From Cytophagales bacterium (GTDB lineage: Bacteria; Bacteroidota; Bacteroidia; Cytophagales; Cyclobacteriaceae): DNA of 32,364 nt. Numbering within the stretch: position 1 is the first letter of the stretch; each line of letters begins with the position of its first letter. Location of the stretch: contig JAAFHY010000035.1 in NCBI GenBank assembly GCA_013298505.1, positions 1-32,364 of the forward strand, written 5' to 3'. Shown piece after piece: positions 1,483-11,843 of the stretch. A program made the position numbers and the translations under genes. The notes under the pieces were generated by a model that saw nothing but the letters and a program-made list of their open reading frames with translations, was not told where the DNA came from and did no database searches.

Positions 1483-1532
1483 TTTTGTCTATTAAATAAA
1501 CCGCAAAGAGACAAGAATTTTGCCAATTGAGC

Positions 1533-1545
1533 AATTGTGACAATT
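1533..1545. promoter_or_regulatory. Small palindrome upstream of grpE
   Basis: AATTGTGACAATT is a perfect inverted repeat (6 + 1 + 6) about 50 bp upstream of the grpE start, next to another CAATTG. Its position would suit an operator for the chaperone operon. Palindromes this AT-rich arise easily by chance, so the call is weak. Confidence 0.2.
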
Positions 1546-1702: not shown

Positions 1703-2773
1703 CTACTTAACCAAATAATTCCATCCATGCACATCGGCCTCTACACCTTTGCGTATGTCGTTCAGCTTTTTCTTAACACGAAGTTGGAAACTATTTTCAG
1801 TTACTGCGGGCAAGTTATAATCTGTTCCGTGGATATGGATCGTTGCAATTTGCGAAACCACCGCAGCCGTACCTACTCCAAATGCTTCGGTTAGGGTTTT
1901 ATTTTTAAACGCCTCTTCAATCTCGGCAACGCTTACTCTTCGCTCTTCTTTTTCGATACCCAAGCTAGATGCCAAAGTTAAAATAGAATTGCGTGTAACG
2001 CCATCTAAAAGTGAAGTGCTCAATTTTGGTGTCACCAACTTTCCGTTCAACACAAACATCACGTTCATCGCGCCAGATTCGTCAATGTATTTGTGATCTT
2101 TGGCGTCTGTCCAAAGCACTTGATCAAATCCTTGCTTCTGCGCAAGCATGGTTGGATAAAATGCACCACCATAGTTACCCGCACATTTTGCAAAGCCAGT
2201 TCCACCTTCTGCCGCGCGCACAAATTCTTCTTCTACCTTTACGCGCACGGGTTTTGCGAAATATGGCCCCACTGGACTCGTAAGAATTATAAATTTATAC
2301 TCTTCGGCAATCTTCACACCCAACTTTGCTTCAGACGCAAAAACAAACGGCCTCAAATAAAGAGAAGCTCCCTCCGAAGTAGGTATCCAATCGGCATCGA
2401 CATCGATCAGCGCACAAAGCGATTGAATAAACAATTCTTCGCTAATGGCAGGCATACACATCCGATCAAGCGATCGAAGCAATCTTTTATGGTGGCGCTC
2501 AGGCCTGAAAATAGTAATTACACCTTTATCATTTTTAAATGCCTTCATACCTTCAAACACCGATTGCCCGTAGTGCAATGCAAGCATAGCAGGCGATAGT
2601 TCCATCATTCCATAGGGCATAACTTTAGGCTCTTGCCATTCTCCATTTTTGTAATCAATCACCAACATGTGATCAGAAATATGATTACCGAAACCTAGAT
2701 TGTTAAAATCAACCGATGAGAGACGAGATTTTGCAACGCGCTCAACGTGGATAGATTCTGTTAATACGGCCAT
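1703..2773 (-). CDS. ilvE: Branched-chain amino acid aminotransferase
   Basis: Transfers the amino group between glutamate and the keto acids of valine, leucine and isoleucine, using PLP in the cytoplasm. The 356-residue protein is a fold-type IV aminotransferase of the larger, eukaryote-like BCAT class. Seen in it are YGQSVFEGMKAF (68-79), the lysine motif FAKCAGNYGGA with the expected Schiff-base K196, and ESGAMNVMFV followed by LLDGVTRNSIL, which bind substrate and the PLP phosphate. Length is normal for this class. The gene stands alone: a repeat-rich gap of 222 bp separates it from the PaiB-like gene upstream, and grpE follows after 220 bp. No other ilv gene is in the window. Confidence 0.95.
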   Translation of the reverse strand: MAVLTESIHVERVAKSRLSSVDFNNLGFGNHISDHMLVIDYKNGEWQEPKVMPYGMMELSPAMLALHYGQSVFEGMKAFKNDKGVITIFRPERHHKRLLRSLDRMCMPAISEELFIQSLCALIDVDADWIPTSEGASLYLRPFVFASEAKLGVKIAEEYKFIILTSPVGPYFAKPVRVKVEEEFVRAAEGGTGFAKCAGNYGGAFYPTMLAQKQGFDQVLWTDAKDHKYIDESGAMNVMFVLNGKLVTPKLSTSLLDGVTRNSILTLASSLGIEKEERRVSVAEIEEAFKNKTLTEAFGVGTAAVVSQIATIHIHGTDYNLPAVTENSFQLRVKKKLNDIRKGVEADVHGWNYLVK

Positions 2774-2995: not shown

Positions 2996-3610
2996 CTACT
3001 GCTTTTTAACAACGCCAAACTTTCTCATCTCATTTGCAATACCCACCGAATTTTCATCGCCTCTTTTATCTAACTCTGCAATAATAGTAGTGTGGTTCTT
3101 TTCATCTCTATTTTGGCTTAGTTTATAACTGGCCTCCAATCGGTCGATGGTAATTTCAAAACCAATCGTGCCACGCAATTCTCCGTGAAAGAACTTGTGC
3201 GACATGGTATCAACAGATACGGGATGTGCTGAGTCTTTTTCGTACTTATTTGTCAACTGTCTGAGCGATTCGATCAATTTCTCTTCACTCAACATCCGCG
3301 CTTTACCGTAGGCATGCACGGCTATGTAATTCCAGGTAGGCACATTTTCATGATCGTACCACGAAGACGAAACGTACGCATGAGTCCCCTGAAATATGAC
3401 CATCACCTCCTCACCTTCAGGCAACTCGCGCCATTGCTTGTTACCACGGCTGATATGGCCATGTAATTTATTTCCATCCAATATCAACGGAACGTGCGTG
3501 GCCCACAATTTGCCTTCTACGGTGCTAACAACGATACCAAATCCATTTTTACGAATAAAGTCTATTAACTCTTCTTCGTTTTCGTTTTTTGCATGAGCAG
3601 GGATGTACAT
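2996..3610 (-). CDS. PaiB-like FMN-binding split-barrel protein
   Basis: Member of the PaiB (FMN-binding negative transcriptional regulator) family, which has the pyridoxamine-phosphate-oxidase-like split barrel. Family signatures are visible over nearly the full 204 residues: MYIPAHAK at the start, ATHVPL (37-42), GHISRGNKQW (51-60), then AYVSSSWYDHENVPTWNY (78-95), followed by the C-terminal helical part. In Bacillus subtilis PaiB is encoded beside the polyamine acetyltransferase PaiA and lowers extracellular protease and sporulation. Whether this protein binds DNA, or is a flavin or haem enzyme, is not settled by sequence. It is the last gene of the seven-gene minus-strand operon, starting 4 bp after the DinB-fold gene, which suggests translational coupling. 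Confidence 0.88.
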   Translation of the reverse strand: MYIPAHAKNENEEELIDFIRKNGFGIVVSTVEGKLWATHVPLILDGNKLHGHISRGNKQWRELPEGEEVMVIFQGTHAYVSSSWYDHENVPTWNYIAVHAYGKARMLSEEKLIESLRQLTNKYEKDSAHPVSVDTMSHKFFHGELRGTIGFEITIDRLEASYKLSQNRDEKNHTTIIAELDKRGDENSVGIANEMRKFGVVKKQ

Positions 3611-3614
3611 ATTT

Positions 3615-4112
3615 TTATTTTTTTAGCGAACGGAGGTAAAAAATAATATCCATACTTTGAATTTTGGTAATGCCTAGCTGATGTAGTAATGTGGTGACTT
3701 GGCCACGATGATAGGTACCATGATTAATAACGTGAAATAGCATGTCTTCTACTTTGTCCTCAAATAAATCGCCTTTAAGGTTTTTATACCTTACTGTTGT
3801 TGAAGAAAAATCCATTTCTTGAGACTCAACGAAGGCAGCTAAACTTTTGGCTGATCGAACGATTCCTTCTAGTAGTTCTTTCTTTCCACCACTAAAATTT
3901 TGAGAAGGCCACGAATCTAAGCTTACACCTTGAAGGCGGTTTAACCATATTACTTCAGCATCCCAGGCATGTAAAAGAGTTTTAGCGATAGATGGAAAAC
4001 TACTTTTTACTTCAGAAAATAGAAGCGATTCGTCTACGGTTTCTAGCGTTTCGGTTAGGCGTTCATTTGCCCATACAGAATAGGCAAGGTGTTGTTTAAG
4101 TGTATAGCTCAT
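3615..4112 (-). CDS. DinB-family four-helix-bundle protein
   Basis: A DinB/YfiT-type metal-binding four-helix bundle of 165 residues. The likely metal triad is H48 (in LLHAWDAEVIWL), H131 and H135 (in INHGTYHRGQ), placed as in the family. In related proteins this fold serves thiol-dependent transferases such as mycothiol- and bacillithiol-S-transferases. The substrate here is unknown, and the name does not imply a DNA-damage role or the DinB polymerase. It lies between the PLP decarboxylase (33 bp) and the PaiB-like gene (4 bp) in the operon. Its place beside OsmC- and PaiB-type genes fits a detoxification role, which is inference. Confidence 0.85.
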   Translation of the reverse strand: MSYTLKQHLAYSVWANERLTETLETVDESLLFSEVKSSFPSIAKTLLHAWDAEVIWLNRLQGVSLDSWPSQNFSGGKKELLEGIVRSAKSLAAFVESQEMDFSSTTVRYKNLKGDLFEDKVEDMLFHVINHGTYHRGQVTTLLHQLGITKIQSMDIIFYLRSLKK

Positions 4113-4145
4113 ATTTTTTACAATTATGCGTTCTAAAAATTATCT

Positions 4146-5552
4146 TTAGAGATGCCCTTTAATTACCTTACACATTAGCTCTAATACAAAGTCGATGTCT
4201 TCACTGGTTGTGCGCCAATTCACAAATGCTGCTCTAATACCTTTACGTTCTTTGTAAATAGTGGGTGTCATAAATACTTTTCCCATTGCATTTAGCTTGC
4301 TTAAAAATGGTTTAATCTTTTCTTGGTTTTCTTCGCCTTGCAGAGTAAAACAAACCGTATTTAGCCTCACCGGTGCCAGCAACTCAAATTGCAAAGAAGC
4401 TTCAATGCCTTTGCCAAATCTTTCAGCATGAGCAATATTATTGTCAACGATTTCGCGAATGCCATCTTTACCATATGCCATTAATGTAAACCAAGCAGGC
4501 AGTGCTTTGAGTCTTCGTGAGTTTTCAGGAAGGAAATTCAGATAGTTGAAATTCTCCATTGGGTTACCAAGATAGGGCGCATTAGAATTTTGGAATGTTT
4601 CTACTTGAAGCACGCTGTGTTTTTGCTTTACAAAAAAGAGCGCGCTCTCGTAGGGTACATTCAACCATTTATGGCAGTCAATGGTAATACTGTCTGCGCC
4701 TTCCCAACCAGCTACCAAATGCTGACGGTGCGATGAGCAAGCCGCAAAGCCACCGAACGCAGCATCAATATGCCACCAGAATGAATATTTTTCTTTCAGT
4801 TTTGCAATTGCATTGAAATCGTCAAAGTCAACCGTATTTACGGTTCCTGCACTTGAGAGTAAAATGACAGATTCCTTTGAATTGCTCTTAAAATAATTTT
4901 CAAGGGCATCCATATCAATGGACTCGCGATTGCCTTTTGCTGTTTCAATTTTTATTACGTTACTGCTTCCAATACCAAGCAACGATAACGATTTAATAGA
5001 GGAGGAGTGGGGCGTAGTAGAAATAACTTTAATACTCGATGTTATTCCTTCTTTAGCAATGTCTTTTTCGTTTTGCGTCCCTACCCATTGACGTGCTACT
5101 GCCAAACAGGTGAAGTTGGACATGGTTGCGCCTGTAACAAACCCACCGAAGAAATCGCTTGGCAAGTGAAAGAGATCAAGAAGTAAATGAATGGTTTCTA
5201 TTTCTACGTTTGCAGAAACATCGCCTTGCCCATTTAGCCCTTGTGGGTTTTGGTCGTAGATGGTCGTGAGCCAATCTCCGGCTATGCCAGCAGGTGTTGT
5301 TCCGCCAGTTACAAATCCCCAATAGCGTGGGCCTGAAGAGCCGACCATGAGTGGCTCAAAGCGTTTATTAAATTGTTGCAGTGCACCGAGTGTACCGATT
5401 CCATTTTCTTGTAAAATCTTTTTGTGCTCGACTGTGTGTTGTGTTGAAGTTGGGCGATTTTCTAAACCGCTCAGGTAAGCCAATGACTGTGCCTGGGTTT
5501 GATGAAACAGTTCACCGAGTTGTTCTAAATCTTTTTGAAGTTGATTGATCAT
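4146..5552 (-). CDS. PLP-dependent decarboxylase, group II (aromatic amino acid / glutamate decarboxylase-like)
   Basis: Fold-type I PLP enzyme of the group II amino acid decarboxylases, which make amines from amino acids. The 468 residues show GFVTGATMSNFTCL (137-150), which binds the cofactor phosphate, HIDAAFGG (261-268) with the PLP-ring aspartate D263, and SITIDCHKWLNVPYE (288-302) with the Schiff-base lysine K295. The histidine before the lysine is typical of the class. No signal peptide is present. The substrate cannot be read from the sequence: aromatic amino acids, glutamate, aspartate or diaminobutyrate are all possible, and some relatives act as aldehyde-forming synthases. It is the fifth gene of the operon, 12 bp after the OsmC gene. 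A PLP enzyme inside a unit next to a MocR-type regulator is suggestive. Confidence 0.9.
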   Translation of the reverse strand: MINQLQKDLEQLGELFHQTQAQSLAYLSGLENRPTSTQHTVEHKKILQENGIGTLGALQQFNKRFEPLMVGSSGPRYWGFVTGGTTPAGIAGDWLTTIYDQNPQGLNGQGDVSANVEIETIHLLLDLFHLPSDFFGGFVTGATMSNFTCLAVARQWVGTQNEKDIAKEGITSSIKVISTTPHSSSIKSLSLLGIGSSNVIKIETAKGNRESIDMDALENYFKSNSKESVILLSSAGTVNTVDFDDFNAIAKLKEKYSFWWHIDAAFGGFAACSSHRQHLVAGWEGADSITIDCHKWLNVPYESALFFVKQKHSVLQVETFQNSNAPYLGNPMENFNYLNFLPENSRRLKALPAWFTLMAYGKDGIREIVDNNIAHAERFGKGIEASLQFELLAPVRLNTVCFTLQGEENQEKIKPFLSKLNAMGKVFMTPTIYKERKGIRAAFVNWRTTSEDIDFVLELMCKVIKGHL

Positions 5553-5564
5553 GTATGCGAAAGA

Positions 5565-6035
5565 TTATTCAACTTTAATGACTGGTTGGATAAGTACTTC
5601 AAAGTTTATAGACCTTGCTATGAAACATGAATGATGAGCCCTTTCATGCAGCTCGTGCGCTTTTGCAACCATCGACTGATCGCTCACGGTCACTTCTGGA
5701 CGGAGGACTATTTGAGTAAACTGGCCGCTTCCATCTTCATTTTCATCCATCGTACCTGCTGCGCGGTCGGTATAGTTTGTAATAACTACATTGTTCACCG
5801 CACAAAAGTGTAAGTACCATAGCATATGGCAGGCCGAAAGTGCAGAGACCATCAAATCTTCTGGGTTATGCTTTGTTTTGTCTCCACGAAAAGCTGGGTC
5901 AGACGAGCCCGCAATATCTGGTTTGTCATTTGAGGAAATGAGATGGCTTCGCTCATACGATTTATAATCTTTTGTTCCGGTTCCAGTGTTGCCCGTCCAT
6001 TGGACAGTTGCTGTGTAGTGATGCTCTTTCTTCAT
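5565..6035 (-). CDS. OsmC-family peroxiredoxin-like protein
   Basis: OsmC/Ohr-fold protein of 156 residues, whose family reduces organic and lipid hydroperoxides with two reactive cysteines. Both are present, C69 in SALSACHMLWYLHF and C137 in HHSCFIARS. The family block HNPEDLMVSALSACH (56-70) is clear. The N-terminal part (GTKDYKSYERSH) follows the OsmC/YhfA-like pattern rather than Ohr, so Ohr is the less likely assignment. It works as a homodimer in the cytoplasm. It is the fourth gene of the operon, 9 bp after the acetyltransferase and 12 bp before the decarboxylase, tying peroxide or electrophile defence to the amine-related genes around it. Confidence 0.9.
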   Translation of the reverse strand: MKKEHHYTATVQWTGNTGTGTKDYKSYERSHLISSNDKPDIAGSSDPAFRGDKTKHNPEDLMVSALSACHMLWYLHFCAVNNVVITNYTDRAAGTMDENEDGSGQFTQIVLRPEVTVSDQSMVAKAHELHERAHHSCFIARSINFEVLIQPVIKVE

Positions 6036-6044
6036 CTGTTTTTT

Positions 6045-6488
6045 TTAATTATCCCAACTATAATAATTATGATCTTTATCTAATTCGAAACCTACTTTAG
6101 GATATAAGTTGTTCCCAATGGTATTTGACTTCGCTGTCTCCAGAATCAAACCGCAAGCACTGGTATTTTTACAATGCTCTTTTGCTTTTTCAATCAGTGC
6201 AATTGAAAAACCTTTTCCGCGAAAAGCGGCATCTACAAATAAATCATTTAACAGCCAAAGTCGCTTCATACGAGTAGACGAGAACAACGGATAAAGTTGC
6301 GTGAACCCTGTCATTACATTTTCATTGAATGAAGCGAAAACCACTGATTCGTTTTTCTCAATTCGTTCGCATAAGAAATTCTTAGCGGACTTTATATCCG
6401 AATCTTTTTTATAAAACACACGATACTGATCAAAAAGAACAGCTAGTTGTTCTAAGTGATGAAGGGTGGCTTGCTCAATTTTAATCAT
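6045..6488 (-). CDS. GNAT-family N-acetyltransferase
   Basis: Acetyl-CoA-dependent N-acetyltransferase of 147 residues. The acetyl-CoA pyrophosphate loop is seen as FRGKGFSIALIEKAKEH (R90-G91-K92-G93), after the strand LLNDLFVDAAF. The C-terminal NLYPKVGFELD (127-137) matches the usual LYEKxGF element. The substrate is unknown. In Bacillus subtilis paiA (a GNAT polyamine acetyltransferase) and paiB form one operon, and a GNAT gene and a PaiB-like gene occur together here, though not adjacent. That makes an amine substrate plausible, but orthology with PaiA is not shown. It lies 48 bp after the PhzF-like gene and 9 bp before the OsmC-like gene. Confidence 0.85.
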   Translation of the reverse strand: MIKIEQATLHHLEQLAVLFDQYRVFYKKDSDIKSAKNFLCERIEKNESVVFASFNENVMTGFTQLYPLFSSTRMKRLWLLNDLFVDAAFRGKGFSIALIEKAKEHCKNTSACGLILETAKSNTIGNNLYPKVGFELDKDHNYYSWDN

Positions 6489-6536
6489 TATTTATTTTTT
6501 GTTAACCAAATAGGCATAGTGAACATAGAAATTCTT

Positions 6537-7322
6537 CTAATCAATAAATATTTTACCAATCAAATAAAGCTTTGCTGTTCCGCTAATTTCCACTCGGTCG
6601 CCTAGTAGCTTACATTTTAGTTTACCGATTCTTTGTGAAAGTTGCAGTGCATTAAATTCCGTTTTATTCAAAACTTTCGCCCAATAGGGAGTTAAAGATG
6701 TGTGCGCAGAACCCGTTACCGGATCTTCGTCAATACCCGATTGTGGTCCAAAAAACCGAGAAACAAAATCAACCTGATTACCTTTGGCGGTAACGATAAT
6801 TCCTCGCGCCTCCACCGTGCCAATCAGTTTGAAGTTTGGCCTCATATTTTGGATTTGTTCTTCGCGTTCGTACACGAGCATGTAATCGGTTTTGCCTTTC
6901 AGAGTCTTTGCTGATTTTACTCCAAGTCCTTCTTCCAAAGCAGGAATGGAACTTACTTCATTTAATGTATCGACTGGAAAATCCAGTGTAAGCGTTTCTC
7001 CAGACTTTGTTACAGTCAATAGGCCACTGCGCGAGTTGAAAGCAATAGCGCTGCCTTGATAATTTTCATAGTTAAACAATACAAACGCAGTGGCCAATGT
7101 AGCGTGACCACATAAATCTACTTCTACTGTAGGTGTAAACCATCGAATGCGCAAACCTTCTTTTTCATTTACATAGAATGCGGTTTCGGCCAAACAATTT
7201 TCCATCGCAATGTTTTGCATGACTTGATCAGGAAGCCATTGCTGCAATGGACAAACAGCGGCCGGGTTGCCAGCAAAAACTTTGTTTGCGAAAGCATCTA
7301 CTTGATAAATTTTTAGTTCCAT
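6537..7322 (-). CDS. PhzF-family isomerase-like protein
   Basis: Diaminopimelate-epimerase-fold protein of the PhzF family, 261 residues. The two pseudo-symmetric halves are visible: AGNPAAVC (17-24), ENCLAETAFY with the expected general acid/base E46, CGHATLA (71-77), and GIDEDPVTGSAH (196-207) in the second half. PhzF itself isomerises dihydro-hydroxyanthranilate in phenazine synthesis. No other phenazine genes are present here, so this is one of the many family members of unknown substrate. It starts 11 bp after the transporter stop and is the second gene of the operon. A small-molecule isomerase directly behind an exporter suggests that they share a metabolite. Confidence 0.9.
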   Translation of the reverse strand: MELKIYQVDAFANKVFAGNPAAVCPLQQWLPDQVMQNIAMENCLAETAFYVNEKEGLRIRWFTPTVEVDLCGHATLATAFVLFNYENYQGSAIAFNSRSGLLTVTKSGETLTLDFPVDTLNEVSSIPALEEGLGVKSAKTLKGKTDYMLVYEREEQIQNMRPNFKLIGTVEARGIIVTAKGNQVDFVSRFFGPQSGIDEDPVTGSAHTSLTPYWAKVLNKTEFNALQLSQRIGKLKCKLLGDRVEISGTAKLYLIGKIFID

Positions 7323-7333
7323 GTTATAGAATT

Positions 7334-8296
7334 TCAGATTTCTGATTTTGGATGTAGGACTCGTTTAATTTTGAATAGCGAATTTTGAAAACTGATTGGG
7401 CTGGCCTTAAGCTGATAGCCTCGGTTAACTAAATATATCCCCAGCACGGTAATGGCAATAGCCAGCCCGATTTGAAAATTTAATTTTTCACTAAGCACAA
7501 GCCATCCAAGTATTACCGCCACCACCGGGTTAATGTATGCGTACAACGAAACGAGTGTCATCGGTAATTTTTTTATTGCATACGAGTAGCAAGCGTAGGC
7601 AGCAGCCGAACCAATTAGGATCATGTAAATAAGCGAGAAAACAACTTCATTATTCCATTGTATTTGAGAGTAGTCATCAAATACGAGCGTGAACGGGATT
7701 AAGAAAAGCCCACCGAAAAGCATTTGAAGGCCAGCGTTTAAAAATGGATTCGAGTTTTGGTTTTTCTTTTTGATCCAGATGCTACCAATTGCCCAAGATA
7801 AATTGGCCATAAAAGTCAGTAAGATGCCTTTTGTATAATTGGCGTTTGAAAACTCTGAAAGGTGCTCGCCAAAGATTAAGATAATTCCAGATAGCCCAGT
7901 AGCCAATCCTACGATGATAAGCCAATTTGGTTTTTCGTCTTTTGTAACGATCACGTTTATAATTACAGTCCAGATGGGCATCATAGAGCAAACAATGGCA
8001 GCCACACCGCTCGAAATATAAACTTCGGCCCAGCCTACCACGCTAATACCAAGCGTGATCATTAATAAACCACAAATTGCTTGATTAAATAAGGTACTGC
8101 GATCGGGCCAAGATACTTTTCCAGATAACGCAGTGAAGAGTAATAGGATAGGACCAGCGGCAAGAAAACGCAGCATCGAAAACAAGAAAGGAGGGAACTG
8201 AGTTACTCCAATTCGTAATACTAAATAGGTGGTGCCCCAAATGATGCACACGGCCCCCAGCGCAAAGTAAGCGAGCAAATTTTTGTCTCTAGTCAT
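7334..8296 (-). CDS. EamA-family (DMT) transporter
   Basis: Inner-membrane permease of the drug/metabolite transporter superfamily, 320 residues with about ten hydrophobic segments and two EamA halves. Diagnostic patches are FALGAVCIIWGTTYLVLRIG at the start and AAYACYSYAIKKLP with SLYAYINPVVAVILGWL in the second half. Members such as YdcZ and RhtA export amino acids, amines or other metabolites; the substrate here is unknown. It is the first clear gene of the seven-gene operon. The 355 bp upstream of it hold a 37-bp operator-like sequence that recurs upstream of the mocR gene. MocR regulators and EamA transporters are known to be frequent neighbours. Confidence 0.92.
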   Translation of the reverse strand: MTRDKNLLAYFALGAVCIIWGTTYLVLRIGVTQFPPFLFSMLRFLAAGPILLLFTALSGKVSWPDRSTLFNQAICGLLMITLGISVVGWAEVYISSGVAAIVCSMMPIWTVIINVIVTKDEKPNWLIIVGLATGLSGIILIFGEHLSEFSNANYTKGILLTFMANLSWAIGSIWIKKKNQNSNPFLNAGLQMLFGGLFLIPFTLVFDDYSQIQWNNEVVFSLIYMILIGSAAAYACYSYAIKKLPMTLVSLYAYINPVVAVILGWLVLSEKLNFQIGLAIAITVLGIYLVNRGYQLKASPISFQNSLFKIKRVLHPKSEI

Positions 8297-8651
8297 AATA
8301 AGTTTTTGAAGCGTACTATATTACTAAAATCTCCACGGATTTTTTTCAATTGTTGATTTCATTTTGTTGTCAATTTTAGAAATCGATTTCAATGGCTTGC
8401 AGCACATTAATGTTTCTGGATTCGAAGCCGGAAGTGATGAAAGTATTTTTAAAGACAGCTTGGGCAAATTTAAAATGATCATCATATACCGATTAGTTAA
8501 AACCATAAATCCAGATAATGATACCAACAGCTACGCCAACCAACAGAAAAACCTTTCTTCGTCTTTGCATAAAAAAATCAACGCTCAAAGTTCTCTTTAT
8601 TACGCAAATAAAACAGTTTCAGTTTCGTGTATTTTAACCAGATCAGTTTGC
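8297..8651. other. Leader region of the seven-gene operon (no certain gene)
   Basis: This 355-bp gap holds no gene I would call with confidence. On the minus strand an ATG at 8570 opens a 25-codon frame (MQRRRKVFLLVGVAVGIII followed by WIYGFN) that looks like a single membrane helix and ends at 8493. The same frame reads on for 38 protein-like codons after the TAA, to a second stop at 8376, so it may be a decayed small gene or a leader peptide. Possible minus-strand promoter boxes are GAACTTTG (8593-8586) and TAAATTTG (8472-8465). The operator-like sequence at 8612-8648 closes the region. Confidence 0.4.
8612..8648. promoter_or_regulatory. Putative MocR operator, copy 1 (in front of the transporter operon)
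   Basis: This 37-bp block begins AACAGTTTCAGTTT and ends ACCAGATCAGTT. It matches the block at 9598-9634 at 30 of 37 positions without gaps; the first 14 and the last 12 positions are identical. TCAGTT occurs twice, 24 bp apart. The block sits 3 bp beyond the stop of the outer-membrane-like gene and upstream of the EamA operon on the minus strand. Here the plus-strand TAACTTTG promoter box of copy 2 is lost (GTATTTTA), which suggests that the outer parts are conserved for protein binding rather than as a plus-strand promoter. Confidence 0.6.
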
Positions 8652-9467
8652 TTAATGAACAAGTTGTGCTGAAACAGTAACAAGCAAGGCATTCTTAGAT
8701 GGGTTTATTTTTTCATTGGATGTGTGCACCATATAAAGCCCCGAAGCTCCAATGCTTAAGAATAAATTTTTCCTTGCTTTAATACGACCGTATGTTACCG
8801 AAATACCGTTGGTCACGTAATTGGAATGGTCAAATACATTATTGTTCCACCACGCTGTCGACACAACATCCCAATGGCGATGTGAGTAAGTAAGCCTAAA
8901 CCGATTCACCCAATCTCGTTCTTCTGGTTCTAAGACCAGATTACCAAATAGGCTCATGTGTTCAAAAGTGAATTGCGAATTTAGTTTAGCGGAAGTTATA
9001 AGAATAACCACCAAATCCGATCCACGGTCGGCTACGCCTTGTTCTTGTTCAAGAAACGAACCAACATAGGGAGTAAATGTAATTTGTTTAGAGAGTTTGA
9101 AATTTCTAAAAACAGAAATAAGAGAAAAATTGTAAAATGTATTGTGGTCGTACAAATCCATGCCTTTAAAAACGAACAAGCCCCAGTTATTTTTTTCGAG
9201 TATAAAGTTTAAATCAGCCGATGGATTTTCGGTAGCTAGGCGACCGCCATAGTTGAAGATAGCTTGAGAGTGCAAACGAGCCGTTAGTCGCCAGTGAACT
9301 GACTTTTTTTCTTTTTTTGCTTCTGTCGAATCGCTCAATTGGGCAGTAGCCGAAGTGGATGACAATATTCCAATCAACAGTAAAAGAAGTAAGCGAAAGC
9401 AATCTGATTGGAGAGTACGAGCGGTAGATTGTATCTTAGTTCTTTTTAATTTCGATATCGTTTGCAT
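8652..9467 (-). CDS. Secreted, probably outer-membrane beta-barrel protein of unknown function
   Basis: I do not recognise the family. From the methionine chosen here the product has 271 residues; an upstream ATG at 9515 would add 16. A long basic N-region precedes a hydrophobic core (CFRLLLLLLIGILSS) and a signal peptidase I site at ATA-Q. The mature part has alternating polar and aromatic residues in many short strands (WGLFVFKGMDLYDHNTFYNF, FRLTYSHRHWDVVSTAWW) with no catalytic motif, as in small outer-membrane barrels. It is transcribed away from mocR, with which it shares a 5' region, and its stop codon touches the copy 1 operator. Control by the same regulator is possible. Confidence 0.7.
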   Translation of the reverse strand: MQTISKLKRTKIQSTARTLQSDCFRLLLLLLIGILSSTSATAQLSDSTEAKKEKKSVHWRLTARLHSQAIFNYGGRLATENPSADLNFILEKNNWGLFVFKGMDLYDHNTFYNFSLISVFRNFKLSKQITFTPYVGSFLEQEQGVADRGSDLVVILITSAKLNSQFTFEHMSLFGNLVLEPEERDWVNRFRLTYSHRHWDVVSTAWWNNNVFDHSNYVTNGISVTYGRIKARKNLFLSIGASGLYMVHTSNEKINPSKNALLVTVSAQLVH

Positions 9468-9597
9468 TGTAAGAAAGCGTTTAGCTAGTTTCATTATAAT
9501 TTTGAAAGCGCACAAAGCAACACAACCTAGTATCGAACATAAACCCGATTATTGCGATCTTTAGTGGGCACAAATTTTATTTTTAAAACGATAAAAT

Positions 9598-9634
9598 AAC
9601 AGTTTCAGTTTTACTAACTTTGACCAGATCAGTT
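9598..9634. promoter_or_regulatory. Putative MocR operator, copy 2 (over the mocR promoter)
   Basis: Partner of the block at 8612-8648 in the same orientation, beginning AACAGTTTCAGTTT and ending ACCAGATCAGTT, with TCAGTT repeated at a 24-bp step. It contains a perfect Bacteroidota -7 box, TAACTTTG (9615-9622), read towards mocR. A protein bound across both TCAGTT repeats would cover the promoter, so negative autoregulation is the simplest reading. MocR proteins such as GabR are known to bind direct repeats near their own promoter. Confidence 0.6.
9615..9622 (+). promoter_or_regulatory. -7 box of the mocR promoter
   Basis: TAACTTTG fits the TAnnTTTG consensus exactly. It would start transcription near 9628, about 90 nt before the mocR ATG. 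No clear TTG -33 element is seen at the usual distance, which would fit a promoter tuned by a bound regulator. Confidence 0.45.
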
Positions 9635-9648
9635 GCAATTAGTTATTG

Positions 9649-9702
9649 GTTACTAGTTACTGGTTTTGTCGCTATTGGTCGCCTGGACTAGTAACTAGCA
9701 AC
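9649..9702. repeat. Inverted repeat in the mocR leader
   Basis: The arms are GTTACTAGTTACTGG (9649-9663) and CTAGTAACTAGCAAC (9688-9702). They match as inverted repeats at 13 of 15 positions and are separated by 24 bp. The region ends 17 bp before the mocR start, so a hairpin in the mRNA could limit translation. Low-complexity CTAGTTACTAGT-like sequence may also be a scattered repeat in this lineage. Confidence 0.5.
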
Positions 9703-9719
9703 TGCAAACTTTATAAAAT

Positions 9720-11156
9720 ATGGAGACAGAATTTGAAGTAAAACCAGACCATCTCTATCACGAAGTAGCAGAGCGGATTGAGACACTTATTGAAAAGCAA
9801 ACACTAAAGTTGGGCGACAAGCTACTTTCTGTGCGGGCGCTTAGCAAAGAGCAAGGCATTAGTTTAAGTACGGCCTTTCAAGCCTATTATCATTTGGAAA
9901 GCAAAGGGCTTATTGAAGCACGCCCACAGTCGGGTTATTATGTAAAATTTTCTCCTTCCGATACATTTAAAGCGCCTACCTGTTGTGAGCCGACCAACGA
10001 AGCTACTCCGGTAAGCGTAGATGAAATAATTACCAGCGTTTATTTTGATTTGCGTTCTCCCAAGCTCACTTCGTTTTCGTTGAGTTCGCCCGATCCAAGT
10101 TTGTTACCTGCGGCTAAGCTTAATAAGTCGGTGATGCATTCTTTACACAACTCGTCCGATCATTGTTTGGGTTACGAGCATATTCAAGGTAATGAGCAAT
10201 TGCGCAAACAAATTGCCCGACTGAGTTTTAATTGGGGCGGTGCGTTAAGCGAGCAAGATGTAGTGGTAACGGCCGGATGCATGGAAGCCCTCTCTCTTTG
10301 TCTGCAAGCAGTAACCACGCAAGGCGATGCTGTGGCAACCGATAGCCCTACGTATTACGGAATTTTTAGAGTGATGCAGAGCCTCGGGTTAAAAGTGGTA
10401 GAAGTACCCACTCACCCGACAACTGGAATTGACCTTTCTTATTTAGAGAAAGCCATCCCTAAATTTAAGATTAAGGTGTGCCTTTTTGTGAGCAATTTTA
10501 ATAACCCAGTTGGCAATTGTATTCCCGATGAAAAGAAAAAGCAATTGGTAGACATGCTAGCAAAAAAAGATATCCCCCTTATTGAAGATGACATCTATGG
10601 CGAAATGTATTTCGGAAAATCAAGGCCGAAGACGTGTAAGACATTTGATAAGAAGGGCCTCGTGCTCCATTGCTCTTCTTTTTCTAAATCGCTGGCACCG
10701 GGCTACCGGATAGGGTGGGCTGTGCCGGGCAAGTTCAAAGACAAAGTGATTAGTTTAAAACGGATGAACAATATTTCTACTAACACACTTGCTCAATCGG
10801 CCATTGCCCATTTTTTGCAGAACGGTAGATATGAGTTGCACCTACGCCATTTGCGAAAGGCGTTACATACTCAATGCCTTCGGTATTTGCAGGCTATTTG
10901 CGAATATTTCCCAGAAGATACGCGCATCACCAGGCCGCAAGGTGGCTTTGTGTTGTGGGTAGAGTTAAACAAAAACGTAGACAGCTATAAACTACACAAG
11001 CGCGCTTTAAAGTATAACATCGGCATTGCACCGGGGCAAATATTTTCTTCGCAGGGGCAGTTCCATAATTATTTTAGATTGAGCTATGGCGCACCGTGGA
11101 GCGATAAGATTGATAAAGCGTTGAAGACATTGGGCGAACTCGTTAGGAAATTTTGA
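9720..11156 (+). CDS. MocR-type transcriptional regulator (GntR HTH + aminotransferase domain)
   Basis: Regulator with a GntR winged helix-turn-helix (about residues 8-77: YHEVAERIETLIEK, GDKLLSVRALSKEQGISLST, LIEARPQSGYYVK). A linker joins it to a fold-type I aminotransferase-like domain (about 105-478). PLP-binding residues are kept: SNFNNPVGN (258-266), IEDDIYGE (288-295) with D290 and Y293, and SSFSKSLAPGYRIGW (319-333) with the lysine K323. In this family the domain usually senses PLP or a PLP-amino acid adduct, as in PdxR and GabR. It is divergent from the outer-membrane-like gene, and its promoter carries the same operator-like block as the transporter operon. The effector is unknown. 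It is not a plain aminotransferase, because the N-terminal HTH is complete. Confidence 0.93.
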   Translation: METEFEVKPDHLYHEVAERIETLIEKQTLKLGDKLLSVRALSKEQGISLSTAFQAYYHLESKGLIEARPQSGYYVKFSPSDTFKAPTCCEPTNEATPVSVDEIITSVYFDLRSPKLTSFSLSSPDPSLLPAAKLNKSVMHSLHNSSDHCLGYEHIQGNEQLRKQIARLSFNWGGALSEQDVVVTAGCMEALSLCLQAVTTQGDAVATDSPTYYGIFRVMQSLGLKVVEVPTHPTTGIDLSYLEKAIPKFKIKVCLFVSNFNNPVGNCIPDEKKKQLVDMLAKKDIPLIEDDIYGEMYFGKSRPKTCKTFDKKGLVLHCSSFSKSLAPGYRIGWAVPGKFKDKVISLKRMNNISTNTLAQSAIAHFLQNGRYELHLRHLRKALHTQCLRYLQAICEYFPEDTRITRPQGGFVLWVELNKNVDSYKLHKRALKYNIGIAPGQIFSSQGQFHNYFRLSYGAPWSDKIDKALKTLGELVRKF

Positions 11157-11200: not shown

Positions 11201-11243
11201 ATTGCTAAAAAATTTCACTGTACATCTTAAAACTAAAATAATT

Positions 11244-11843
11244 ATGGCCTTTACACTTCCTGCACTTCCCTACGCAACTACTGCATTAGAACCACACATT
11301 GACGCCCGCACCATGGAGATACACCATGGCAAACATCACAATGCGTATGTTACCAATTTAAACAACGCCTTGGCCGATAAGCCAGAGGCAAATTTTTCAA
11401 TTGAAGATATTTGCAAGAATATTTCAAAATACCCAGCGGCTGTTCGTAACAACGGAGGTGGCCATTATAATCACAGTTTATTCTGGACCATCATGGCTCC
11501 CAACGCAGGTGGTGCGCCTACGGGGGCATTGGCCGATGCAATCAACGCAGCCTTCGGAAATTTTGATGAGTTCAAAACAAAATTTAATACAGCCGCCACT
11601 ACGCGCTTTGGGTCAGGCTGGGCTTGGTTGATTAAAGGAGCAGATGGTAAACTTGCCATCACCTCTACACCTAATCAAGATAACCCGTTGATGGATATTG
11701 CCGAAGTAAAAGGCACACCCTTGCTTGGTTTAGATGTATGGGAGCACGCCTATTATCTAAACTACCAAAATCGTAGACCTGATTATTGCACTGCTTTTTG
11801 GAATGTAGTTAACTGGGCAGAGGTGGCGAAGAGGTTTGCGTAG
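11244..11843 (+). CDS. sodA: Superoxide dismutase, Fe/Mn family (Mn-type signature)
   Basis: Converts superoxide to oxygen and hydrogen peroxide. The 199 residues begin [20 protein letters not shown], the usual start of the family; the upstream in-frame ATG at 11202 adds an atypical 14-residue tail and lies too close to the -7 box. Metal ligands are seen in [22 protein letters not shown] and [12 protein letters not shown] (Asp and His). The glycine-rich [11 protein letters not shown], together with the glutamine in [10 protein letters not shown], is the manganese-type pattern, though metal-promiscuous enzymes share it. There is no signal peptide, so it is cytoplasmic. It follows mocR after 87 bp but has its own promoter box. 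Confidence 0.96.

Follow-up and report, generated by a model that had tools for sequence, protein, structure and literature searches.

A predicted pair of three-box operators links a MocR-type regulator to an EamA exporter operon in Bacteroidota

Introduction

The closest described relatives of the regulatory system analyzed here are GabR of Bacillus subtilis, with its 34-bp ATACCA repeats, and the PdxQ, PdxW and PdxR groups of MocR regulators. GabR is established as a repressor of its own gene and an activator of gabTD (PMC6522883, PMC6917764). In the survey of Suvorova and Rodionov (2016; PMC5320631), as far as its text describes these groups, PdxQ regulons include DMT transporters, COG384 (PhzF), the RimI acetyltransferase, and pyridoxamine-phosphate oxidases, and PdxW regulons include OsmC and acetyltransferases. 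The survey lists motifs of three direct boxes as a class of MocR motifs, comprising 18 regulons, and covers Bacteroidota with 8 regulogs and 19 regulons. The pairing of regulator and site described below is well supported, but it is of a sort broadly expected for the MocR family.

Our subject is the window, that is, the whole stretch of 32,364 nucleotides from a Cytophagales bacterium of Cyclobacteriaceae that was analyzed. The original prediction was that it holds a complete regulator, two sites and a target operon. This claim gains support from phylogenetic footprinting and from the co-occurrence of the site with MocR, with binding itself predicted from sequence, and on these comparisons we take the conserved pair of putative MocR operators and its regulon, with their GabR-like geometry, to be real. 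For a MocR of environmental Bacteroidota, a phylum in which few such regulons have been reconstructed, the locus supplies an operator, a promoter geometry and a regulon that can be tested. Literature searches for MocR together with GntR and EamA, or for MocR together with Dyadobacter, returned no paper; the supplementary tables of PMC5320631 could hold an earlier prediction.

Results and Discussion

The MocR regulator and the EamA operon

The regulator is encoded at 9720..11156 of the plus strand. Its product joins a GntR-type wHTH domain (PF00392, residues 12-75) to a class I aminotransferase domain (PF00155, residues 137-469), the domain composition of the MocR subfamily, and SFSKSLAPGYRIGW in the translation fits what we take to be the PLP lysine motif of fold type I. 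The genome gave no other match to the GntR family (E 0.001). Alignments with the structures of GabR (4n0b, residues 8-409) and 7pq9 (residues 9-471) span both domains. GabR thus has the same architecture, but the similarity is low (68.7 bits), and the target genes and the box sequence are different. The best NCBIfam match is the PdxR equivalog NF052282, at 269.8 bits over residues 12-471, under its curated cut-off of 320; the GabR family NF052285 scores 123.3 bits, under its cut-off of 600. In contrast to PdxR, the family matches in the window operon contain no PLP synthesis genes. Because the score is below the PdxR cut-off, we file the protein as a MocR with a PdxQ/PdxW-like regulon and assign it to no published group.

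The operon is transcribed on the minus strand. Its first long gene encodes an EamA (DMT) exporter (7334..8296), followed by genes for PhzF (6537-7322), GNAT (6045-6488), OsmC (5565-6035), a PLP-dependent decarboxylase (4146-5552), DinB (3615-4112), and a PaiB/FMN_bind_2 protein (2996-3610), with gaps of 4-48 bp in the part 2996..7322. The seven long genes are those originally described; the leader contains at least one further small gene, treated below. By family content the putative regulon resembles the published PdxQ and PdxW regulons, as the text of PMC5320631 presents them: EamA (DMT), PhzF, GNAT, OsmC and the FMN_bind_2 protein are all found, and EamA (PF00892), downstream of operator copy A, provides the DMT or LysE transporter of a PdxQ-type regulon. 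Unlike the regulons presented there, the window operon also includes DinB and the decarboxylase, and no pdxH was identified in it. The PaiB-type FMN_bind_2 protein has a sub-threshold match to PNPOx_N (23.7 of 28.1 bits), and in one relative (L120) a PNPOx_N protein above threshold stands before EamA.

Two neighboring genes deserve mention. The gene of a branched-chain aminotransferase (1703-2773, minus strand) lies 222 bp past the operon and has no site of its own; in some other lineages this gene, or the GNAT gene before it, adjoins the MocR site. A Fe/Mn superoxide dismutase gene (11202-11843, plus strand) is the next one after mocR in many relatives, and is divergent from EamA in L204 and L206, genomes with no MocR match.

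Two copies of the operator in the window

The blocks at 8612-8648 and 9598-9634 had been reported as a 37-bp match. Recomputation gives the same agreement, 30 of 37 ungapped positions, with identical outer parts of 14 and 12 positions, 7 differences among the middle 11, and TCAGTT repeated at a step of 24 bp in both blocks. When the intergenic regions 8297-8651 and 9516-9719 were shuffled preserving dinucleotides, the best 37-mer match was 27 and none of 1000 shuffles reached 30. The similarity of the blocks extends to 58 nt at 74% (8591-8648 and 9577-9634). A pattern search allowing up to 3 mismatches in the assembly (206 contigs, 98.93% complete) found these two copies only.

Operator copy A (8613..8648, plus strand; CAGTT boxes at 8614-8618, 8620-8624 and 8644-8648) does lie upstream of the EamA operon, as had been stated; in addition, its strand is opposite to that of the operon, and it is 316 bp away from the EamA start. 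Its spacer lacks TAnnTTTG. Equivalent copies were found before EamA in relatives. Operator copy B (9599..9634, plus strand; CAGTT boxes at 9600-9604, 9606-9610 and 9630-9634) is situated between mocR and the gene 8652..9515.

This gene, on the minus strand, separates the two copies. Its product is outer-membrane-like by eye only and has no Pfam or NCBIfam match. Copy B is at promoter distance from it too, and the gene is a possible third target of MocR. An element like GCAANAANCGGGTT occurs in its leader at 9541-9555 (minus strand); judged by eye it is conserved, and in relatives a CTTTG box comes next after it. It is perhaps the gene's own promoter or a site of another factor. A search of 8200-9750 against Rfam returned nothing at E up to 1, and a riboswitch or other known RNA was therefore dropped as a candidate for this region. 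The plus-strand ORF 8364-8672 has no Pfam match and was also set aside as a gene, since it is antisense to conserved small ORFs.

Conservation of the site in relatives

In its consensus form the motif consists of three direct boxes, ACAGWT-TCAGWT-N17-AWCAGWT, with CAG at 0, +6 and +30. It was scored over 19 positions, and the reversed pattern served as a control. For footprinting, the best 80 of 107 loci with a MocR relative were taken, from Cyclobacteriaceae, Dyadobacter, Mucilaginibacter, Saprospiraceae and other Bacteroidota; the gene start was present in 79. Conservation of the site near orthologous regulators, the check proposed along with the original prediction, was indeed observed. The motif occurs upstream of MocR with at most 2 mismatches in 64 of the 79 loci, and with 3 mismatches in 5 more, in sequences related by descent, so that counts of loci or genomes are not counts of independent events. 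The reversed control found no locus of the 79 at this level, its best match ever having 5 mismatches.

The 15 loci with 3 or more mismatches, these 5 included, are L038, L039, L041, L050, L051, L052, L054, L055, L057, L099, L101, L109, L110, L111 and L112. The first three keep box 3 and TAnnTTTG and have lost boxes 1 and 2. A full-match site stands before the best EamA elsewhere in the genome in all five of L051, L052, L055, L112 and L053; in the last, the motif on the MocR side has 2 mismatches.

In a scan of the whole order with up to 2 mismatches, 31 of 291 genomes were matched (40 matches); most of the 2-mismatch matches are background, since the reversed control gave 22. Outside the genus, 7 of the 9 matches with 0-1 mismatches precede a MocR (L143, L149, L161, L162, L166, L167, L168), as do the 2-mismatch matches in L144 and L145. 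L164 has a 0-1-mismatch site at a gene boundary, in a locus with neither MocR nor EamA. In L156, from another family, a full-match site (1503-1538, plus strand) lies about 640 bp behind a MocR relative (44%) and before an unrelated leftward gene.

Within the genus, 58 genomes were compared, with up to 3 mismatches allowed for the site and E 1e-60 or better required for MocR. The site is present in 37 of the 58, and its reversed control in none. MocR is present in 38, of which 37 were found by the search; the other is G051, where MocR is cut by the contig end (L123). The site is found in 37 of the 38 genomes with MocR vs none of the 20 with no MocR match. The single exception is G013, whose MocR is a fragment at the start of a contig and which also encodes an EamA relative. 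Of the 20 genomes with no MocR match, some of which are incomplete assemblies, 16 encode an EamA relative (49-71% identity, E 1e-70 or better). The EamA locus of L211, in a genome that is 78% complete and has no MocR match, carries a decayed site with boxes 1 and 2 nearly intact and box 3 lost. Near EamA in L204 and L206, likewise in genomes with no MocR match, no site was recognizable (best 6 mismatches; 3 of 6 loci examined).

The 60 sites in these genomes were assigned to genes under limits of 350 bp and 600 bp, with the expected orientation required. Of these, 55 precede MocR, EamA or both: 23 MocR only, 9 both, and 23 EamA only. Among the 5 before neither gene, 3 are 66-273 bases from a contig end. 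In G006 a PhzF-like gene stands between the site and EamA, and in G036 the site is beside a gene of the 8652-9515 type, with EamA 24 kb off and bearing its own site. The proposed link to the operon holds also where EamA is unlinked from MocR: sites precede EamA genes as far as 117 kb (G005) and 2.8 Mb (G030) from MocR.

These data bear on whether the site might belong to another transcription factor that merely happens to be linked with MocR. We deduce the binding of MocR from sequence, which leaves room for such a factor, and the L156 site, a full match outside the genus that is not before MocR, would agree with it. But the site is missing from all 20 genomes that have no MocR match, including the 16 with an EamA relative. 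Moreover, the site lies over MocR's own promoter in several lineages, and direct boxes fit the MocR class as outlined in PMC5320631. Finally, the pairing of regulator and site is unusually clean, because no second GntR-family protein was matched in the genome. We consider an unrelated owner of the site very improbable, and continue with MocR as the predicted one.

Another explanation concerns the origin of the pair. Where a gene of the 8652-9515 type is absent, mocR and EamA often have one shared site between them; loci that have it usually carry a copy on either side of it, and the window is of this kind (an exception, with a single copy, is L124 of G039). The blocks might thus have arisen by segmental duplication of a single control region upon entry of this gene, with only one copy still working, and the extension of the match to 58 nt would suit such an event. 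The origin may well be so; yet both copies have been kept. The copy on the EamA side retains its boxes in relatives, whereas its spacer lacks TAnnTTTG in 28 of 30, and some genomes with a decayed MocR copy still have it in intact form. That one of the copies is an idle relic is therefore improbable, and we treat both as candidate operators.

Box structure of the motif

The composition of the boxes suggests which of them are read as a pair. In 64 sites with up to 2 mismatches, positions 4 (box 1) and 34 (box 3) change together: TT occurs in 16, AA in 46, AT in 2, and TA in none. Position 10 (box 2) does not change along with them: among the sites with A at position 4, it is T in 33 and A in the other 15. 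Boxes 1 and 3, 30 bp apart, are therefore the likelier functional repeat, and they probably form the pair read by equivalent subunits, although the covariation is only suggestive, because clades differ as wholes. The TCAGTT pair at 24 bp, put forward earlier as the repeat, is real in the window, but it is not the pair that covaries. A comparison of wHTH residues between the CAGTT and CAGAT clades yielded no separating position at the 80% threshold. The covariation of boxes 1 and 3 provides a natural test for the reading of direct repeats by head-to-tail MocR dimers.

Promoter geometry and sign of control

Three -7 boxes were predicted around the two copies, with transcription starts expected near 9627 (plus strand) for mocR and near 8581 (minus strand) for the EamA operon. 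The predicted -7 box of mocR, TAACTTTG (9615..9622, plus strand), is inside copy B, in the spacer between boxes 2 and 3, in line with the earlier claim that one copy covers the mocR promoter box. That of the EamA operon, GAACTTTG (8586..8593, minus strand), is one base from the common offset, and a leftward one at copy B, AAAATTTG (9571..9578, minus strand), is directed toward the 8652-9515 gene.

TAnnTTTG in the spacer, directed toward MocR, is found in 42 of 89 MocR-proximal vs 2 of 30 EamA-only unique sites (Fisher p 4.8e-5), one of the 30, in L109, being probably a chance match. In the leftward direction, 93 of 119 unique sites have TTTG at exactly offset 24 after box 1; another 13, the EamA copy of the window among them, have it at offset 23, and 10 at offset 2. 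With the -7 box placed at -12 to -5, as given in PMC9723704, the predicted site would span about -28 to +8 at the mocR promoter, and about -68 to -33 at leftward promoters (-67 to -32 for the EamA promoter of the window). By eye, leftward promoters have no evident -33 element, and many have xAnnTTTG rather than TAnnTTTG.

From the motif, its conservation, its co-occurrence with MocR and its position relative to the -7 boxes, all of which were computed, we infer binding, the sign of control and a ligand. A site that spans -28 to +8 of the mocR promoter should lead to repression of mocR, and a site next to a leftward -7 box with no evident -33 element should lead to activation of the EamA operon. 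The likely signs are thus repression of mocR and activation of the leftward genes, by analogy with GabR. The preference for leftward activation over repression is based on this geometry and on that analogy.

The alternative is that the same regulator at the same sites represses in both directions, as an apo-repressor relieved by ligand. Box 1 touches the leftward -33 region, where a bound protein could block polymerase, and EnuR is termed a MocR repressor in PMC8739950. On the other hand, the 36-mer is wholly upstream of the leftward -7 box; the lack of an evident -33 element and the frequent xAnnTTTG are what is expected of activated promoters; and GabR, as presented in PMC6522883 and PMC6917764, sets a precedent for opposite signs. 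Repression of both sides is thus rather unlikely.

The best explanation overall, which we hold with high confidence, is that both blocks serve as operators for the product of mocR (9720-11156), with boxes 1 and 3 most likely read, and with mocR probably repressed and the EamA operon probably activated. In the proposed mechanism, the direct boxes would be read by a MocR dimer, head-to-tail as in GabR. The pair it reads would most likely be boxes 1 and 3, whose 30-bp step makes about three helical turns, and box 2 would have an auxiliary role. At copy B the dimer would repress mocR. When loaded with PLP and with an amine or amino acid as ligand, the bound regulator would switch on the EamA operon; the 8652-9515 gene would perhaps respond likewise.

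The genes facing the site vary among relatives. Among the 67 loci whose site precedes MocR, EamA takes the first divergent position in 27, out of 31 in which the first genes include an EamA relative. Elsewhere this position belongs to a member of a mixed cluster of GNAT and branched-chain-aminotransferase proteins (10 loci), a protein of the decarboxylase cluster (8), a DUF1572/DinB-like protein (7), a gene of the 8652-9515 type (6), or something else (9). The first divergent gene often starts about 40-60 bp from the site.

Small ORFs in the EamA leader

Two small ORFs on the minus strand occupy the leader of the EamA operon in the window. Small ORF 1 (8493..8570) encodes 25 aa, MQRRRK followed by a hydrophobic stretch that looks by eye like a membrane span. 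Similar ORFs, with ATG near the site, a basic start and a hydrophobic rest, were found in 15 of 30 unique EamA-only vs none of 34 shared leaders. For the 11 of these 15 that start with M..R[RM], pN/pS is 0.41 in the reading frame of the ORF, against 1.03 and 1.54 in the two alternative frames, and divergence by codon position is 0.42/0.20/0.64. By its substitution pattern, small ORF 1 appears coding-like. A profile of the 15 peptides gave 26 matches at E 0.01 in 25 of the 58 genomes; 15 matches, from 15 genomes, are below E 1e-9. The 14 strong matches with EamA on the same contig all share its strand and lie 12-242 bp upstream of it. As leaders of this kind went into the profile, what carries information is the absence of strong matches at other places. 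At least 5 weak matches are found elsewhere.

Small ORF 2 (8324..8485) encodes 53 aa and ends with EKNPWRF and a stop. Its relatives, in 11 leaders in all, end with NPWRF or NLWKF; this C-terminal end is conserved, with synonymous codon changes. The conserved small ORFs indicate an unstudied part of the exporter operon. We tentatively suggest, as a possibility of less than even odds, that in a part of the genus the exporter operon under MocR control starts with microproteins that have been overlooked. One, with about 25 aa and a single hydrophobic stretch, would be encoded just upstream of EamA and could plausibly serve the exporter as an accessory or regulatory subunit; the second, in some species, would be the peptide with the NPWRF/NLWKF end, which may couple or tune the translation of EamA.

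The possibility that small ORF 2 is the remnant of a PNPOx gene was considered and provisionally set aside. The leader of the window gives chance-level matches only (E above 6), and the intact PNPOx_N protein of L120 shares only its C-terminal 12-22 residues with small ORFs of L114, L022, L142 and L132. The end common to these four and L120 is NNLWKF or similar.
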